A program made the translations under genes and the position numbers. The notes beneath the pieces were generated by a model. It was not told the DNA's origin. It ran no database searches and saw only the letters and a program-made list of their open reading frames with translations. 50,681 bases of DNA. Origin: Limisphaerales bacterium. GTDB lineage: Bacteria; Verrucomicrobiota; Verrucomicrobiia; Limisphaerales; JAKEEH01. Below, in pieces: positions 38,272-48,384 of this stretch (its first letter is position 1; each line of letters begins with the position of its first letter). The DNA is taken from positions 1 through 50,681 of the forward strand of contig JAKEEH010000122.1 in assembly GCA_022616725.1 (NCBI GenBank), written 5' to 3'.

Positions 38272-40197
38272 ATGGCTCTTAACCGCGTTATGACGAAATA
38301 CAAACTTACCCATCGTATGAAATTCACGTTCTGCGCCGCTGCCGTTGTTTGGGCGGGCATAGCGTTGCAGGCTCAGACCAATGGTCCGATCCTGGTCGAT
38401 CCCAATCTCAGGGTGCGCTCCGTTGTGAGCAATCTTGATCAACCTACAAGCATGGCGTTCCTCGGCGCGAACGACTTTCTCGTGCTCGAAAAGGCCTCCG
38501 GCAGAGTTTTGCGCGTCGTCGATGGCGCGGTCACCGCCACCGCGCTCGACCTCGCCGTCAACTCCGCCTCCGAGCGCGGGTTGCTCGGCATCGCGTTGCA
38601 TCCCGACTTTCCGGCCAACCCCGGTGTCTATCTCTATTGGACTGAAAGCTCGACCGGCGCTGATTCAGGCGAACTCGCCGATGTCCCGCTCCTCGGCAAT
38701 CGTGTGGATCGTTTTATGTGGAACGGCTCCACTCTGACGAGGGAGCAAAATCTGATCCGCCTGCGCGCCCTTCAACAGGATGCCGACCAGCCTCTTCGCG
38801 GCAATCATGATGGAGGCGTGGTGCGCTTTGGTCCCGATGGCAAGCTCTACATTTATATGGGCGATAATGGACGTCGTGGCCAAATGCAGAACCTCCCCGA
38901 TGGTCCGGGCCCGGACGGCAACATGCCGGACGACCAATTCGGCGGCCCGGAACCCGATGACGCCCATCTCACTGGCGTGGTTCTCCGCTTGAATGACGAT
39001 GGCTCGGCCCCAACCGACAATCCGTTCTTCCGCGCCGGGGCCATTCGCGGCGGCGAAGCAGGGGCTAACCTGCAGAAGGTCTTTGCCTATGGCATCCGCA
39101 ACGGCTTTGGAATGGCCTTCGATCCGTTCTCTGGGGAACTGTGGGAAGGGCAAAATGGCGATGACAGTTTCACGGAAATCAACCGGGTCGAGGCGGGTGC
39201 AAATCTCGGCTGGATTCAAGTTATGGGACCGCTGGAACGCATCGCCCAGTTCAAAGAAATCGAGACCAGCTCAAACTTCTTCGGCCTGCAACAGATTCGC
39301 TGGTCCCCCACCAACATCGCCGACTCCGCCCAGGAAGCGTTGGCCCGCCTGTTCATGGTGTTTGAGGGCGGCGACGAATTTGGAGCCTTGATGACAGGCG
39401 CTGAAGAAGTGCCCCCGGTGCAAACCGACGCCCGCGCTCTGGCCCGTTTCACGTTGAACCCGGACGGGACGCTCTCTTACGAACTGCGCGCCACCGGACC
39501 CATTGAGGATGCGACCCAGGCGCACATTCACGTGGGCGGGCGCAAGCAGAATGGCCCGGTGGTTCTGTTTTTGTTTGGCTTCGATCCGGCAGGACAGGAT
39601 TTCCAGGCTGGCGACTTGATTGCGAGCGGCACGGTCAACGATTCGGACGTCATCGAGCGCCCCGGCTTCACGCCCACAATTTCCAACCTCGTCCAACGCA
39701 TACGCCAGGGGCGTACCTATGCGAATCTCCACACCATCGCCCATCCGGGCGGGGAGGTCCGCGGGCAAATCATCGTCACCGATCGCGCCCCTGTGTCGCG
39801 CTACAGTGACCCGGAATTCAGTTGGAAATTCGAGGTCGCTCCCGCCGGCATCGGCTTCATCAGCAGCCGGGCTCTTGGGCCGCAATACCAGGGCGATTTG
39901 ATCGTCGGCGCCGCTCGAGACTTCCTCCAGGGCGGCACGCTGTTCCGTTTCAACCTCACCGGCAACCGCCGGAAGATTGCCGTTGAAGATCCGCGTCTCG
40001 AGGATCGCGTCGCGGACAATCTGGCCAAGTTTGAAATCACCGAAAGCGAAAGCCTGCTGTTTGGGACCGGGTTTGGAATCGGGACAGATATTCACACCGG
40101 ACCCAACGGCAACCTCTACGTCGTGTCGCTCTCGAACGGCACAGTTTACGAAATCTCCCGGCTCACTCCGACGGGCAAAACCGGATTGCGCAAATAA
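38272..40197 (+). CDS. Exported PQQ-dependent sugar-dehydrogenase-like protein with CHRD insert
   Basis: 641 residues (starts at 38290 or 38317 would also keep the signal peptide KFTFCAAAVVWAGIALQAQ). Glucose/sorbosone dehydrogenase propeller: LDQPTSMAFL, RGLLGIALHPDF, NHDGGVVRFGPDGKLYIYMGDNG, FAYGIRNGFGMAFDPFSGELW, HTGPNGNLYVVSLSNGTVYE. Between ~365 and 505 the propeller is interrupted by a CHRD domain (LMTGAEEVPPVQTDARALARF, ATQAHIHVGG, GTVNDSDVI, YANLHTIAHPGGEVRGQI), otherwise found in BMP-inhibitor chordins and bacterial surface proteins. It may bind a sugar or metal ligand. Enzyme activity is likely periplasmic oxidation of a sugar but untested. Confidence 0.92.
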   Translation: MALNRVMTKYKLTHRMKFTFCAAAVVWAGIALQAQTNGPILVDPNLRVRSVVSNLDQPTSMAFLGANDFLVLEKASGRVLRVVDGAVTATALDLAVNSASERGLLGIALHPDFPANPGVYLYWTESSTGADSGELADVPLLGNRVDRFMWNGSTLTREQNLIRLRALQQDADQPLRGNHDGGVVRFGPDGKLYIYMGDNGRRGQMQNLPDGPGPDGNMPDDQFGGPEPDDAHLTGVVLRLNDDGSAPTDNPFFRAGAIRGGEAGANLQKVFAYGIRNGFGMAFDPFSGELWEGQNGDDSFTEINRVEAGANLGWIQVMGPLERIAQFKEIETSSNFFGLQQIRWSPTNIADSAQEALARLFMVFEGGDEFGALMTGAEEVPPVQTDARALARFTLNPDGTLSYELRATGPIEDATQAHIHVGGRKQNGPVVLFLFGFDPAGQDFQAGDLIASGTVNDSDVIERPGFTPTISNLVQRIRQGRTYANLHTIAHPGGEVRGQIIVTDRAPVSRYSDPEFSWKFEVAPAGIGFISSRALGPQYQGDLIVGAARDFLQGGTLFRFNLTGNRRKIAVEDPRLEDRVADNLAKFEITESESLLFGTGFGIGTDIHTGPNGNLYVVSLSNGTVYEISRLTPTGKTGLRK

Positions 40198-42558: not shown

Positions 42559-43050
42559 TTAAGCGACCTTTCTTTTCTTTTTGGTGAACACAGGCGCGGT
42601 GTTTGCCACGTTGAGCATCGACAGATCGATCCCGTTTTCGGGGTCGCGCTCGTGCGCTCGCTTCAACTGGGCGGAAACCTCCCTCAGCGTCGTCTCGGCA
42701 AAATATTTCACCGCCCCAACGCTGATGCGCGCCTTGAAAATAATTGTCAGGAGCGAATATTCATCCACATTCAGGACCAGCAAACTGAACGACTCGCCCT
42801 GCTGATAGACGCTGGTGAAGTTAGTTTCGTTGACCAGACCGGCGATGCCTTGCGTGGCGGCAAAGGATGCCGCCGACAGCGCTGCCAGCGTGACAGTGTC
42901 AAATGAACTAAAATCACCGACCTGGCTGATGAGGAATCCGCCCTTATCGATGAGCAGGCCGATGCTGGCATCGCTTTTCAGGAGCAACTCCTGCACGGAG
43001 CGATTGATCTCAGCGATATCTTCTTCGATGAGTTGAGGCAGCGTCGCCAT
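42559..43050 (-). CDS. Roadblock/LC7 protein, MglB-like
   Basis: 163 residues. Roadblock/LC7 fold (~15-145): DAS IGLLIDKGGFLISQVGDF, LAALSAASFAATQGIAGLV, SFSLLVLNVDEYSLLTIIFKA. Short basic tail (FTKKKRKVA). In Myxococcus the MglB homodimer is a GTPase-activating protein for MglA. It starts 1 nt after the MglA stop on the same strand, a tight pair. It is the last gene of the minus-strand arm. Confidence 0.93.
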   Translation of the reverse strand: MATLPQLIEEDIAEINRSVQELLLKSDASIGLLIDKGGFLISQVGDFSSFDTVTLAALSAASFAATQGIAGLVNETNFTSVYQQGESFSLLVLNVDEYSLLTIIFKARISVGAVKYFAETTLREVSAQLKRAHERDPENGIDLSMLNVANTAPVFTKKKRKVA

Positions 43051-43051
43051 A

Positions 43052-43666
43052 TTAAGCCGCTTTGCGGCCGCTCTCGTTGATGAATTTGTGGAGGAGGAGG
43101 CGCGTAATCATGTTCAAGGTCTCGAACACGCCTTCGCACTTGTTGGCGCAGGCCTCAAAGGAGGGCACCTGCACCTCGCGATTGTTGAGGAGGAACTCCA
43201 TGTACTCGAGGGGAGCGACGGTGGGGAGATCGCGCTTATTGTACTGCAAAATGTACGGGATATCCGCGAGGTTCAGGTTGAGGCTCCGGAGATTCTCTTC
43301 CAGATTGGAAAAGCTTTTGACGTTCTCCTCCATTTTGTCGTACTGCGAGTCCGCGACGAACACGATGCCATCGACGCCGCGGAGCACGAGCTGGCGCGTG
43401 GTGTTGTAAATGACCTGGCCGGGCACGGTGTAGAGCTGGAATTTGGTTTTGAAACCCTTGATCGCGACCGCCTCGATGGGAAGGAAATCGAAGAACAGCG
43501 TGCGATCAGAGCTCGTGGCCAGCGACACCAGTTTGCCTTTGTTGCCCTCGGCGGTCTGCACGTGGTCGTGGACCTGCACGAGGTTCGTGGTCTTGCCACC
43601 CAGCGCAGGTCCGTAATAGACAATCTTGACCTGCAGTTCTTTGGTTGCCTGATTGATTATCGCCAT
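43052..43666 (-). CDS. mglA: MglA-type small GTPase
   Basis: 204 residues from ATG 43666 (MAIINQATKELQVKIVYYG). P-loop GPALGGKTT, switch I region SSDRTLFFDFLP, MglA-specific YTVPGQVIYNTTRQ in place of DxxG, NKRD as YNKRDLP, and a C-terminal helix. These are MglA features rather than Ras/Rab ones. MglA sets cell polarity and drives gliding or twitching in Myxococcus and is tied to type IV pili or to vesicle-like systems elsewhere. Here it lies between two roadblock proteins with spacings of 13 and 1 nt. Confidence 0.96.
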   Translation of the reverse strand: MAIINQATKELQVKIVYYGPALGGKTTNLVQVHDHVQTAEGNKGKLVSLATSSDRTLFFDFLPIEAVAIKGFKTKFQLYTVPGQVIYNTTRQLVLRGVDGIVFVADSQYDKMEENVKSFSNLEENLRSLNLNLADIPYILQYNKRDLPTVAPLEYMEFLLNNREVQVPSFEACANKCEGVFETLNMITRLLLHKFINESGRKAA

Positions 43667-43679
43667 ATGTTTAATCGCG

Positions 43680-45509
43680 TTACTTCGTGTGTCGGCCCAA
43701 TTCGGTGCTGATGAGGCAAAGATCGGAAATCGGAAGGCCCGTGTCCGGTTTGCCGAGCGCCGCAAAATAAATGATTCCCGCATTGAAAATCTGCAGCGTG
43801 CCAGTCTCGACCGCGAAACTGACGCTCTGCACTTCGCCCATCTGCAATTCCTTTGTGTACTGCGTGAGCCGGCCAAAGATCTGCGGGATGAACGCCGCGA
43901 TGGTTTCAGCTTTCCACGGAGGGGGCATGCAACCGGCCACCAGCAAACCGTCCTGCAGCGCGATGAGTGCCCCTGTGACGCCAGGCAGCGTAATCGTTTT
44001 GTGAACGATTTCGTTGGGCGTCCAGTTCTTCTTGTTCGGCTCGTTGAAAAGTTCGCAGAGATTCTGCGGGCGCGGCCGGTCTGAGGCGACAGGAGCCGGG
44101 GCCGGTGGAGCAGGGGGTTCCGGCGCCGGCGCGGCGGCTTCCGCCTCGGGCTCGGCTTCGGCTTGTTCGAGCTTCTCGCCCCTGGCGTTAAACAGATCGG
44201 GAATGCCGCTCGGCACGTTTGATTTCTTGGCGCCCCTTAAGGACCGCTGTTCCAGAAACAGTGGCGCGATCACGGGCAGCGGAAATTCCAGGATCGTTTC
44301 GGCGTGCTCCAGGGAGACCTCCACTTCGGGCTCAGGGCGCAACCAGATAACGACCTGCTTGAGCGGAAATTCCACTTTGCCCAATTTCAGGGCACTCTCT
44401 ATCACATTTATGGGCAGTTCGATGTCCGTCGCCCCGAGTTGCTGAATCTGGCTCCGCACCTGGGCGGGCCACTTCTGGCAGACCTTGGCCAAAGAGACGG
44501 AAATTCTTGCCTCATTTGTTCCAGGGAACGGAGTTGCCACGAATGGGCTCGCGGCTGGGGCGGGCTGCACCGGCGCGACTGCAGGAGCGGTCGGCAACTT
44601 GATCGCATTTGGCGGCAGGGTCGTGGGGGGCGCAGGCGCGGGCTTCTGAGGCGCTACCGGTTGAGGTCTTGGAACAGCGCTAATGGACGGGCCGGTCGGA
44701 AGGGGCGTTTGCACGGGCACCCGAGCCACCGGGGCCACCTGTGTCGGCGCCGGTTTAGCGAGGGGCGGAACCGAAGGCGCAGGGATTGTTGGGGCGGCGC
44801 TGGGTGTTTGCGCGGCTGTCGCCATTTGGCGGGCCAGATTTGGCGCCGCGATGCGGATAGGTTCAGGTTGCGGTGTTTGTGCGACACGGGGAACGGGGGA
44901 AGTAAACGTGTGGCCTGGCGTAATTGCGGGCGCTTGAGGGACAGGCTGCGCCGGAGCCGCTTTCGCCTGATTTTTGTCCAGAACTCTTACTGTCGTGAGC
45001 CGTTCGCCTTTGCTGCCAAACAGGTCCGTCAAATCATCGGGAACGCTGACCAATTGCTGGTCGCTGCGGCGGGCAAAGGCCTCGGGCCGGATTTGATTCA
45101 AAATCTCGCGTAATGGCAGGTCGATCAGGCGATTTTCGCTTCCGGTGCCGGCTGCGAACGTGCCGGGAGGCGCCACACGGCGCAGTTCACCGAGCGGCAC
45201 CTTGACGGCGCCGCGGGAAAGCTGTTCGAGGGCAGCCGCACGCGGAAGCTGATAGATATGCGAGCCGCTGTTGACCGCACCGCGTCCCTGCAGCTCCTTT
45301 GGGACCATGAGTAAAATTGCGCTGAACGGGACCGCTATCGAATCGCCCGATCCTGCGGGCGCGGGCGATGGAGGGGCGGCGGTGCGGCGGAAGAAATCTG
45401 TGGCCTGGCGAACGGATTGAGTCAGCAGCGCCGGTGGAGTTGGGGAAAATGGTGTCTCGGACTGCGCGCCAGCAGATTTTTTGAATAACTTCGCAATTTT
45501 CCCGAACAT
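43680..45509 (-). CDS. Roadblock/LC7 protein with duplicated unknown module and Pro-rich linker
   Basis: 609 residues from ATG 45509. Basic N-terminus (FGKIAKLFKKSAG); module copy A (~58-175) with IAVPFSAILLMVPKEL, VKVPLGELR (102-110) and DLFGSKGERL (162-171); a Pro/Ala-rich linker (~180-330); module copy B (~334-450) with VEFPLKQVV (379-387) and DLFNARGEKL (438-447); an acidic Ala/Pro linker; then an LC7 domain (~505-605: GVTGALIALQDGLLVAG, LTQYTKELQMGEVQSVSF, FNAGIIYFAALG). The long frame upstream of 45509 is a shadow. The LC7 domain suggests it scaffolds or activates MglA. The module is not a family I can name. It is the first gene of the minus-strand arm. Confidence 0.85.
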   Translation of the reverse strand: MFGKIAKLFKKSAGAQSETPFSPTPPALLTQSVRQATDFFRRTAAPPSPAPAGSGDSIAVPFSAILLMVPKELQGRGAVNSGSHIYQLPRAAALEQLSRGAVKVPLGELRRVAPPGTFAAGTGSENRLIDLPLREILNQIRPEAFARRSDQQLVSVPDDLTDLFGSKGERLTTVRVLDKNQAKAAPAQPVPQAPAITPGHTFTSPVPRVAQTPQPEPIRIAAPNLARQMATAAQTPSAAPTIPAPSVPPLAKPAPTQVAPVARVPVQTPLPTGPSISAVPRPQPVAPQKPAPAPPTTLPPNAIKLPTAPAVAPVQPAPAASPFVATPFPGTNEARISVSLAKVCQKWPAQVRSQIQQLGATDIELPINVIESALKLGKVEFPLKQVVIWLRPEPEVEVSLEHAETILEFPLPVIAPLFLEQRSLRGAKKSNVPSGIPDLFNARGEKLEQAEAEPEAEAAAPAPEPPAPPAPAPVASDRPRPQNLCELFNEPNKKNWTPNEIVHKTITLPGVTGALIALQDGLLVAGCMPPPWKAETIAAFIPQIFGRLTQYTKELQMGEVQSVSFAVETGTLQIFNAGIIYFAALGKPDTGLPISDLCLISTELGRHTK

Positions 45510-45698
45510 AAGTTTCTCGCGTAGCACGTCATGAGCCAAGCGCGCGCCTTTGGAGGGTTGAAAGCGACAATCACTGCTGCCGGCGAACTTCGGCTTGGTT
45601 TCTGCTACGCGCTGCATCTGGCGCCCCGCCGATTTCGCAGACGCCGAGTAGCTGAGTATGCGTTGGAATCGGTGGAGCACTGAAAGAACGCCCACAAC

Positions 45699-46784
45699 AT
45701 GGTAGCGCAACCTAAAATTCTGTTGCTGGATGACGACCAGGATTTCCTGGACCTCTATAAAGAGATGTTGACGCAGCACCTGTCTTGTCTGCCCGAGGTG
45801 CGCACCGCGTCGTCCGGATCGCGAGCCTTATCACTGCTGGAATCGGAGCCTTTCACGCTCATGGTCGTGGACCTGAACATGCCCAAGATGGACGGCCTGC
45901 AGGTCCTGTCGATCGCCCGCCGCAAATATCCCACGCTGAAATTGGTCGTGCTGACCGGGATTCGTGACGAACAATTCCGCACCCGCGCTTACGCGATGGG
46001 CATCGACCAGTATTGGATCAAGCCCGAATCGGACCAGGAGATGGGCTTGTTCATGGAATCGATCGAATCGCTCCTGAACCGTGAAGCGCAAGGTGGTTTT
46101 CGCGGCGTGCAGAGCAAGAGCCTGGTGGATATTATTCAGTTGGAGTGCCTGTCACAAAGTTCTTCAGTATTGAAGATCACCAACGGCGTGGTGGAGGGCA
46201 AAATCTGGATTCAGAACGGCGAGGTGATCGATGCGGAAGCGGCCGGCATCACGGCCGAACCGGCTTTTCAGCGCATCCTGTCCTGGAAAACCGGGAGCTT
46301 CGAAATCATGCCGGCTGATTCGCTCCGGCCACGCGCGATTTTTACGTCTTACCAGGGCCTGCTCCTCAACACGGCGCAGGCGATCGACGAGGCGGCGTCG
46401 CAGCCGGAGCCGGTTGAGACTCCGGGCGCCACGCCTGTCAATGAACAGTTAACCACGCAATCGCTCCTGGTGGAGGTGTCGCAGATGACGGGGATCGATT
46501 TCGCGTTGATCCTGGGCAAGGAGAAAAAAGCGGAAGATTTCTGGGGATTGGATAATCCCAAGCCGGTCACGACCTGGCTCCGCCAAACGATCGATTCCTT
46601 CAAGGAATTGGGTGAGCGGCTGCAAGTCGGGGAAATGCAGCAGATCACCGCAACAGGGCTGCACAAGAAGATCAGTATCGCCACGGCCGGCAAATCGAGC
46701 CTGTGTATCGGGTTCCCAAGCGCCACTTCGACCGATCAGATGCGCGAAACGATGCGAACGATTGTAACAAAATGGGTCTCCTGA
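45699..46784 (+). CDS. Receiver - PATAN (DUF4388) - LC7 regulator
   Basis: 361 residues. Receiver domain (~5-125): acidic DDD (11-13), phosphoacceptor Asp58 in VVDLNMPKMDG, Thr in VLTGIRD and Lys108 in YWIKPE. PATAN/DUF4388 (~128-225): SKSLVDIIQLECLSQSSSVLKI, GKIWIQNGEVIDAEAAG, FEIMP. C-terminal part (~258-360) looks like a roadblock/LC7 fold (GIDFALILGKE, LGERLQVGEMQQITATG, CIGF) and shares the LQxGExQ motif with the 609-residue protein. PATAN regulators control polarity and motility in cyanobacteria and others. It is divergent from the MglA arm; the 189-bp gap 45510-45698 must hold both promoters. Confidence 0.9.
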   Translation: MVAQPKILLLDDDQDFLDLYKEMLTQHLSCLPEVRTASSGSRALSLLESEPFTLMVVDLNMPKMDGLQVLSIARRKYPTLKLVVLTGIRDEQFRTRAYAMGIDQYWIKPESDQEMGLFMESIESLLNREAQGGFRGVQSKSLVDIIQLECLSQSSSVLKITNGVVEGKIWIQNGEVIDAEAAGITAEPAFQRILSWKTGSFEIMPADSLRPRAIFTSYQGLLLNTAQAIDEAASQPEPVETPGATPVNEQLTTQSLLVEVSQMTGIDFALILGKEKKAEDFWGLDNPKPVTTWLRQTIDSFKELGERLQVGEMQQITATGLHKKISIATAGKSSLCIGFPSATSTDQMRETMRTIVTKWVS

Positions 46785-47092
46785 AGTTTCTTACCGGGTC
46801 CAGAGAGCCGCGGCTGATGCGTCTGCCTTCCGGCAGTTTCACCGTGGACGCGAACTGCAAGATCATGACCTCGACCCTGCCGCAAAACTTTCCCGAGGGC
46901 CGGATGCGGGAGATTGGGCAGCAGGTGCTGGCGTCGTTTCGGGCGGCCAAGCAGGCGCAAATGCCGTTGACGGAGCTCATTATTCATTTTGCCGCCCTGA
47001 AGCTTCTGGCCCGCGAGCTGCGCGGGGGGGCGATGATTTTCCTGATGCCGCAGAGTCTGAACCAACCCACTAAATTGTCGGAACGCGTATGA
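46772..47092 (+). CDS. Unknown small protein in the MglA/roadblock cluster
   Basis: 106 residues from ATG 46772, overlapping the regulator gene by 13 nt. The frame upstream of 46772 is a shadow. MGLLKFLTGSREPRLMRLPSGSFTVDANCKI, TLPQNFPEGRMREIGQQVLASF and LTELIIHFAALKLLARELRGGAMIFLMP suggest a mixed alpha/beta fold of longin or roadblock type, but I cannot identify it. It overlaps the next gene by 4 nt. Confidence 0.75.
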   Translation: MGLLKFLTGSREPRLMRLPSGSFTVDANCKIMTSTLPQNFPEGRMREIGQQVLASFRAAKQAQMPLTELIIHFAALKLLARELRGGAMIFLMPQSLNQPTKLSERV

Positions 47093-47490
47093 GCAAGAAC
47101 AACATCGATCAACTGATCCTCCGCCTGGAGAGCTATCTGGAATGCTGGAAACAGTATAACAGTTTTATGGCGATGGCCCGGAGCAAAAAATTCGGCACGG
47201 AAGAGGAGAACCAGTTCCTGGAAATCAAAAGCGTGATCACCCAGGAGTTGGAGTTGCTTCTCTCCTCTATTGATTGCGGGCCCATCAGCCGCGACGAGGT
47301 GCATTCGCTGATCGCCGCCGGGCCATCGATCCGGTTCCTCAGCGAGATGAACGACAACTCGCTGCGAAACATCGAGAGCCAGTGGCACAAACTGTTCATT
47401 GGGCTGCAATCGATCCTCGGCCAGCTCAAAGTCAAGCAAAACCAGGTCGATAGTAAGGGTCTGATGAGCGGCTTCCTCGGACGCAAATAA
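47089..47490 (+). CDS. Unknown all-helical protein in the MglA/roadblock cluster
   Basis: 133 residues. Nearly all-helical composition (DQLILRLESYLECWKQYNSF, FLEIKSVITQELELLLSSID, LRNIESQWHKLFIGLQSILGQL). No family recognised. It overlaps the previous gene by 4 nt and is followed by a strong terminator, so the plus-strand arm (46784-47490) is one operon. Confidence 0.75.
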   Translation: MSKNNIDQLILRLESYLECWKQYNSFMAMARSKKFGTEEENQFLEIKSVITQELELLLSSIDCGPISRDEVHSLIAAGPSIRFLSEMNDNSLRNIESQWHKLFIGLQSILGQLKVKQNQVDSKGLMSGFLGRK

Positions 47491-47589: not shown

Positions 47590-48384
47590 GTGCCGGAGTG
47601 GCTGAATGTCGCGCTCCTCGGGATTATCGAGGGCATAACTGAATTCCTGCCTGTCTCATCGACAGGCCATCTTCTGCTTGCCGAAAAATGGCTCGGTCAC
47701 CGCAGCGATCTTTTTAACGTCGTCATTCAATGCGGCGCCGTTTTGGCGGTGCTGATGGCCTTTTCGGGCCGCATGCGCGACCTGCTTGTCAAAACGCACG
47801 AACCGGAGAACCGCGATTATTTGCTCAAGCTGCTTTTGGCCTTTGTTATCACTGGCGCGGGCGGGATGGTTCTGAAGCGATTTGAATTTCAATTGCCGGA
47901 GACAGCCGCCCCCGTCGCCTGGGCAACCCTCGGGGGCGGCGTCTTGATCCTCGTCGTCGAAGGCTGGCTGCAAGGCCGCTCGTTGAAACCCCGGATCACA
48001 TGGACCGTCGCCGCTATCGCGGGGGTTGCGCAGTTGGCCGCGGCAATCTTCCCGGGCACTTCCCGCTCAGGCGCGACCATTCTCGCGGCGCTGGCCCTTG
48101 GGGTTCAGCGCAAAGCGGCGACGGAGTTTTCTTTCCTCCTCGGCATCCCGACGCTGCTCGCGGCCGGTGGAATGCACGTTTATTCCGCCCAACAGCGTGG
48201 CCAAACGATCGATTGGCCGCTTGTGCTCATTGGCGCCTCGTTTGCGGCGGTCACCGCGTTCGTAGCCGTCAAGTGGTTGTTGCATTATGTGCAAAGCCAC
48301 ACGTTCAAAGCCTTCGGTTGGTACCGCATTGGCCTGGGCATCCTCATCCTCATCCTCTTCGCTAAGCACAGCCAATCACAGTGA
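47590..48384 (+). CDS. uppP: Undecaprenyl-diphosphatase
   Basis: 264 residues from GTG 47590, about eight membrane spans. LLGIIEGITEFLPVSSTGHLLLAEKWLG and FPGTSRSGATILAALALG are the two catalytic motifs (E-x3-E, and PGxSRSxxT) of the BacA/UppP family. It removes a phosphate from undecaprenyl-PP to recycle the lipid carrier for peptidoglycan and other wall polymers, and gives bacitracin tolerance when abundant. The octamer array lies 33 nt before the start. Confidence 0.97.
   Translation: MPEWLNVALLGIIEGITEFLPVSSTGHLLLAEKWLGHRSDLFNVVIQCGAVLAVLMAFSGRMRDLLVKTHEPENRDYLLKLLLAFVITGAGGMVLKRFEFQLPETAAPVAWATLGGGVLILVVEGWLQGRSLKPRITWTVAAIAGVAQLAAAIFPGTSRSGATILAALALGVQRKAATEFSFLLGIPTLLAAGGMHVYSAQQRGQTIDWPLVLIGASFAAVTAFVAVKWLLHYVQSHTFKAFGWYRIGLGILILILFAKHSQSQ

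Follow-up and report, generated by a model that had tools for sequence, protein, structure and literature searches.

The window analysed here is a stretch of 50,681 nucleotides (contig JAKEEH010000122.1) from the draft assembly of a Limisphaerales bacterium of the phylum Verrucomicrobiota (GCA_022616725.1). It carries six genes in two divergent arms, which encode a small Ras-like GTPase of the MglA type, its presumed GTPase-activating protein (GAP) MglB, a response regulator that joins a receiver (REC) to a PATAN domain (DUF4388), and three further proteins (Table 1). The minus arm consists of mglB, mglA and the gene for a 609-residue scaffold-like protein. The plus arm consists of the regulator gene and the genes for two small proteins of 106 and 133 residues. 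Neighbouring genes are separated by 13 and 1 nt or overlap by 13 and 4 nt, and the six open reading frames (ORFs), the 189-bp divergent gap and all spacings and overlaps given in the original prediction were correct to the base. A promoter scan, covering only the sigma-70 type, found none in the gap. The genome has a single MglA, and the two LC7 domains that Pfam detects in the whole genome both lie within the cluster. Pedosphaera parvula and Verrucomicrobiales MAGs are among its nearest named relatives.

Table 1. Features of the six-gene locus, with positions in the window
Feature	Position	Strand	Remarks
Roadblock protein of the MglB type, 163 aa, presumed MglA GAP	42559..43050	-	Robl_LC7 2.1e-8
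MglA-type small Ras-like GTPase, 204 aa, ATG at 43666	43052..43666	-	
609-aa scaffold-like protein: duplicated ~115-residue domain, Pro-rich linkers, C-terminal roadblock	43680..45509	-	
Dedicated domain copy 1 of 609-aa protein	45003..45347	-	E 4.6e-32
Dedicated domain copy 2 of 609-aa protein	44175..44507	-	E 7.6e-36
C-terminal roadblock/LC7 of 609-aa protein	43776..44006	-	6.8e-5, above curated cut-off (genome scan)
Divergent intergenic region, 189 bp	45510..45698	.	24-693 bp across relatives
Response regulator, REC-PATAN and probable roadblock, 361 aa	45699..46784	+	
Receiver domain of regulator	45711..46079	+	D11, D12, D58, T86, K108
PATAN (DUF4388) domain of regulator	46098..46400	+	8.5e-15
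C-terminal roadblock-like domain of regulator	46464..46778	+	AF2 topology, weak profile matches
Predicted minimal roadblock protein, 106 aa	46772..47092	+	Start within regulator gene, 13-nt overlap
Conserved 133-aa protein without database family, probable REC-PATAN partner	47089..47490	+	

To judge by profiles and motifs, the MglA and MglB found here are genuinely related to the pair in Myxococcus. The best PDB match of the MglA profile is M. xanthus MglA (6h17, 1.6e-71), with Pfam placing the protein in the Ras/Arf family, and the profile of the MglB family aligns with M. xanthus MglB (6izw/6h5b) along its length at 6.6e-25. In the window, MglA has the P-loop GPALGGKT, the stretch SSDRTLFFDF with Arg55 beside the G2 threonine, TVPGQ and NKRD. 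The P-loop, the intrinsic Arg55, TVPGQ and NKxD are conserved in 23 orthologues, where SSDRTLFFDF and TVPGQ are invariant, and the intrinsic arginine and TVPGQ are also found in all 20 class-level copies. Wuichet and Sogaard-Andersen name these two marks for Group 1 MglA proteins (PMC4316618). By its motifs and its best PDB match, the protein from the window can be assigned to the Group-1 type.

An alignment shows that three genomes encode an MglB with an extension of two CDGSH iron-sulfur motifs (L107:4916-5764, L108:10372-11229 and L109:8552-9346). Pfam confirmed zf-CDGSH in the first of these (2e-17). A stand-alone CDGSH ORF adjoins mglB in other genomes (L121). It is possible that such an extension provides a redox input to the GAP.

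The regulator combines its receiver (Response_reg, 2.7e-20 by Pfam) with PATAN in all 43 orthologues. We found that D11, D12, D58 and K108 are invariant in 44 of 44 regulator copies, with threonine or serine at residue 86, and the receiver should therefore be phosphorylatable. The structure predicted with AlphaFold2 (AF2) has a mean predicted local distance difference test score (pLDDT) of 88, with about 80-95 in the C-terminal block, and the last 105 residues follow the order a-b-b-a-b-b-b-a (a, helix; b, strand), which is that of a roadblock domain. The profile of this region gives a weak match to the roadblock protein 7f8f (0.014), which is co-linear and spans nearly the whole 7f8f chain. 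Pfam did not detect Robl_LC7 in the C-terminus of the window copy; 2 of 17 C-terminal members match it weakly (best 0.0037). With the whole regulator model, Foldseek returned only receiver proteins among the listed matches and is uninformative on the C-terminus. The C-terminus is likely a roadblock fold, and the LC7 topology that had been predicted for it is thus seen in a high-confidence model and in a co-linear, if weak, profile match. The original prediction further proposed that a receiver fused to such a domain next to MglA would couple phosphorylation to the GTPase switch. Since the receiver residues are kept throughout and MglA and MglB are true Myxococcus relatives, this coupling stands as a well-founded hypothesis.

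The two small proteins of the plus arm had been described as unknown. This holds for the 133-aa protein, which belongs to no database family, but the 106-aa protein appears to be a roadblock fold, the fourth in the locus. At the sequence level, Pfam does not recognise it. Its AF2 model (mean pLDDT 86.5) shows strands at residues 21-25 and 31-34, a helix at 42-61, and strands at 68-73, 76-83 and 86-93. All 50 PDB matches listed by the fold search are roadblock proteins or roadblock-containing complexes, among them the Asgard roadblock 7yh1 as the best (1.9e-4), Ragulator, dynein complexes and M. xanthus MglB; the E-values are modest, and there is no competing fold among the matches listed. The model thus describes a minimal roadblock fold without the first and last (flanking) helix. 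Because this protein would also be a roadblock, the locus can be read as four roadblock folds and one GTPase. A profile-profile comparison of the regulator, 106-aa and 609-aa families with MglB gave nothing usable. The overlap between the regulator gene and the 106-aa gene measures exactly 13 nt in 42 of 43 non-redundant loci, and since it is kept exactly in spite of differing codons, the two genes are probably translationally coupled.

The third protein of the minus arm had been called an LC7 protein. This is correct for its C-terminus, where Robl_LC7 is found at residues 502-578 (3e-4 by Pfam) and is matched by 39 of 40 orthologues (best 3e-9), but the description was incomplete, as it overlooked a dedicated, duplicated domain in the N-terminal part. 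The two copies of this domain of about 115 residues have diverged and are still aligned with each other by hhalign at 98.7% probability (2.4e-16). The domain has no Pfam match, and among 20 sampled genomes of the order it is confined to the scaffold gene of those that bear the cluster. The linkers are rich in proline and alanine and vary in length. In a PDB profile search, the family gave LC7 matches and matches due to linker composition, and nothing else; weak matches to dehydrogenase E2 chains fell within the Pro/Ala-rich linkers and were dismissed as compositional.

The 133-aa protein has 41 orthologues with a mean column identity of 64%. Searches of Pfam and PDB gave this family chance-level matches only, none of them credible, and a phage search found nothing. 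Outside the order the protein is nearly absent (3 of 289 genomes of the phylum, this genome included). In two genomes of another order (family f67), the gene immediately before a homologue encodes a PATAN protein whose receiver is degenerate. An HU-like gene and one for a hybrid histidine kinase lie next to these loci (L129:8491-10024 and L130:8460-9631), with no MglA nearby. As the homologue follows PATAN there with no MglA beside it, the 133-aa protein probably goes with REC-PATAN and not with MglA. The rarity of this protein had suggested that the whole system is specific to the order, an idea we dropped when the MglA search showed the minus arm to be class-wide.

Conservation of the cluster in relatives, a further expectation of the original prediction, is borne out by the genomes of the order. 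MglA is present in 111 of 245 genomes and the regulator, counting strong matches, in 115; 105 genomes have both, 6 only MglA, 10 only the regulator, and 124 neither (Fisher test, 5e-49, without phylogenetic correction and with most genomes being drafts). Some of the regulator-only cases are contig edges that still bear the start of the 609-aa gene (L137-L139). The two genes lie close together on one contig in about 85 of the 105 genomes, and the remainder are mostly split over draft contigs. We fetched 40 stretches, chosen mostly for having MglA and the regulator on a shared contig, and the same six-gene divergent order was found in 38 of 38 adjacent loci, with mglB adjacent in every one. The six-gene set is more than a chance neighbourhood. 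In one single-contig genome (G097), the arms are about 430 kb apart with each arm intact, and in another genome of the same genus (G011) they are on different contigs.

One genome (G102) has, on contig 107 (L141), a second mglB-mglA-scaffold arm in addition to a complete six-gene cluster elsewhere. The REC-PATAN-like gene that adjoins this second arm is only distantly related.

Relatives of MglA are also present in other orders of the class, and their gene neighbourhoods provide a link to type IV pili (T4P). A PilB-type ATPase gene is located directly upstream of scaffold-mglA-mglB in 14 of the 20 class-level loci fetched, all from other orders, and a TPR-MshEN protein also precedes the arm in 13 of them. 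The two class-level ATPases that we tested scored best against TIGR02538 (PilB; 4.6e-195 and 1.3e-202), with GspE second. This genome encodes an orthologous TPR-PilB pair on a different contig, its PilB having 58% identity and the next paralogues about 42%. Because this pair lies on another contig, the order of the window has the mgl arm apart from PilB and opposite the REC-PATAN arm. The original prediction saw no motility or pilus gene adjacent to the cluster; this is true of the window, but it is a feature of the order, with the PilB-type ATPase directly upstream elsewhere in the class. In three loci of other orders, PATAN-FHA genes are divergent from scaffold-mglA-mglB (L177:11383-12075, L178:5202-6161 and L179:4891-5922), which suggests that an FHA-type input replaces the receiver there. 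PATAN partners with swapped input domains may therefore be a recurrent theme. In L005 and L006, the ATPases close to the regulator arm have GspE as their best-scoring family, and the ATPase array near the cluster in L111 includes a PilT above its cut-off.

We propose, with a probability of roughly 0.6, that the six genes form one MglA/MglB signalling module that is gated by the phosphorylatable REC-PATAN-roadblock regulator and controls the T4P motor PilB. The genes and their folds, their conservation and co-occurrence, the intact residues for phosphorylation and GTPase function, and the PilB-type operon linkage in relatives all back this proposal. We infer all protein contacts, as well as which way control runs and how pili are affected. 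In the output arm, MglA would be the GTPase switch and MglB its roadblock GAP, while the scaffold protein may pair with roadblock partners via its C-terminus and bind the pilus machinery or the cell pole via its duplicated N-terminal domain. In the input arm, a histidine kinase encoded elsewhere would phosphorylate the receiver. The roadblock domain of the regulator may pair with the co-translated 106-aa roadblock or dock on MglB or the scaffold, so that phosphorylation would alter the nucleotide state or docking of MglA, with the 133-aa protein serving the REC-PATAN part. Either MglA-GTP or PATAN would finally act on the T4P assembly ATPase PilB, and the module would decide where or when pili are built. 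Both routes have precedents: PATAN regulators of Synechocystis bind PilB (PMC10519157, PMC7690835), and MglA together with SgmX stimulates T4P formation in M. xanthus (PMC7519303). The path from phosphate via a GTPase to a pilus motor becomes testable with few purified proteins. A more elaborate version, which we hold only tentatively, has the four roadblock folds forming one heteromeric, Ragulator-like scaffold around MglA, with the phosphorylated receiver setting the GTPase and PATAN and the duplicated domain passing its state on to PilB.

Several observations weigh against this proposal. The PilB-type ATPases narrowly miss the curated PilB cut-off, and they could resemble GspE instead. In the window, the genes next to the cluster include neither a pilus motor nor a kinase. 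PilT is present in 244 of the 245 genomes of the order, and we rejected it as a discriminating marker for the cluster as near universal; since it is as common without the cluster, pili do not require the cluster. The roadblock assignment of the regulator comes from a monomer model and weak profile matches, and the co-occurrence statistics carry no correction for phylogeny and draw mostly on drafts. Furthermore, there is no strong CheW match in this genome. CheW is found more often alongside the cluster (83 of 121 genomes versus 31 of 124; 6e-12, with no tree correction), which fits a chemosensory source of the signal in many genomes. For the present genome it does not fit, and CheW as an obligatory input was rejected there.

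The module might alternatively serve polarity in general, with MglA marking a pole, a division site or an envelope site and pili being one possible client. Such a role would agree with MglA positioning several machines in Myxococcus, for gliding as well as for T4P (PMC9481161), with PilT being equally common without the cluster, and with a gene for the cell-wall lipid enzyme UppP/BacA following the 133-aa gene in 11 loci. However, these are a minority of the loci, and the PilB-type ATPase is directly upstream in 14 of the 20 class-level loci; we regard this alternative as unlikely.

Less probable still is a role in type II secretion, where the module would control a pseudopilus with a GspE-type motor instead of type IVa pili. 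The ATPases upstream of the mgl arm come close to the PilB equivalog cut-off without reaching it and have GspE as their next best match, the L005 and L006 ATPases mentioned above score best as GspE, and a pseudopilin-like ORF is found inside the window, about 5 kb from the cluster. On the other hand, PilB outscores GspE for both class-level ATPases tested, and the array in L111 holds a PilT above its cut-off.

That the two arms are separate systems with a common promoter region, where the plus arm would control a target other than MglA, is very improbable. The 133-aa homologue and a degenerate REC-PATAN do occur together without nearby MglA in family f67, the minus arm is found with no regulator both in other orders and in a few genomes of the window's order, and the arms are split in one genus. 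However, they are jointly present or absent in 229 of the 245 genomes of the order, the plus arm bears two further predicted roadblock folds, MglA's partner class, and three loci from other orders also pair the scaffold gene with a divergently oriented PATAN-FHA gene.

As to the flanking genes, UppP/BacA (undecaprenyl-diphosphatase) is encoded at 47590-48384 of the window, after the 133-aa gene, with a homologue just past that gene in the 11 fetched loci mentioned above (e.g. L105:5373-6179). At 38272-40197, a CHRD domain is fused to a Glucose/sorbosone dehydrogenase-like domain.

Overall, the original prediction is partly supported: the locus is real, conserved and richer than described. In the open-access literature searched, we found no study on the control of surface movement in this phylum and no link between MglA and DUF4388 under that name. 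As in the actinobacterial conservon (CvnA-D), homologues of MglA and MglB are encoded in a conserved locus with ties to two-component signalling. In contrast to the conservon, the locus lacks both a histidine kinase and CvnC, no kinase corresponding to CvnA being found among the cluster genes or the examined flanking genes, and MglA appears to be of the Group-1 type and not of Group 2. Like the eukaryotic Rag-Ragulator (LAMTOR) system, the locus combines one small GTPase system with a variety of roadblock folds, and LAMTOR complexes are among the best PDB matches of the 106-aa model. Rag GTPases, however, have their own roadblock domain, and the likeness is one of fold and parts list only.

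Another close comparison is with MglA/MglB/MglC/RomR of M. xanthus, where polarity is set by MglA, roadblock proteins and a receiver protein (PMC10329633, PMC9481161) and the roadblock protein MglC bridges RomR and MglB (PMC10329633). Common to both are an MglA of the Group-1 type with arginine finger and TVPGQ, a full-length MglB relative, additional roadblock protein(s) and a receiver-domain regulator. The difference is that here the regulator itself has PATAN and, probably, roadblock domains, so that receiver, PATAN and roadblock would be united in one polypeptide beside MglA, MglB and two more roadblock folds, and that a single locus encodes all the parts, including four roadblock folds and a 609-aa scaffold whose duplicated domain is private to this system.

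Receiver and PATAN are also combined in the Synechocystis regulators PixG, PilG, TaxP2, PixE and LsiR, and published work reports that such regulators influence T4P motility and that their PATAN domain binds PilB (PMC7690835, PMC10519157). In PixG, PilG and TaxP2, PATAN is N-terminal, whereas here it follows the receiver, a roadblock domain is probably added, and an MglA/MglB pair stands alongside. Makarova reportedly noted PATAN genes near MglA/MglB in 2006. The survey of Wuichet and Sogaard-Andersen found PATAN genes occasionally near Group 1 and Group 5 mglA and listed Verrucomicrobia under Group 5 only, not under Group 1 (PMC4316618). Compared with this occasional link, the six genes are a stable unit across the order with an MglA of the Group-1 type, and the MglA arm extends throughout the class.

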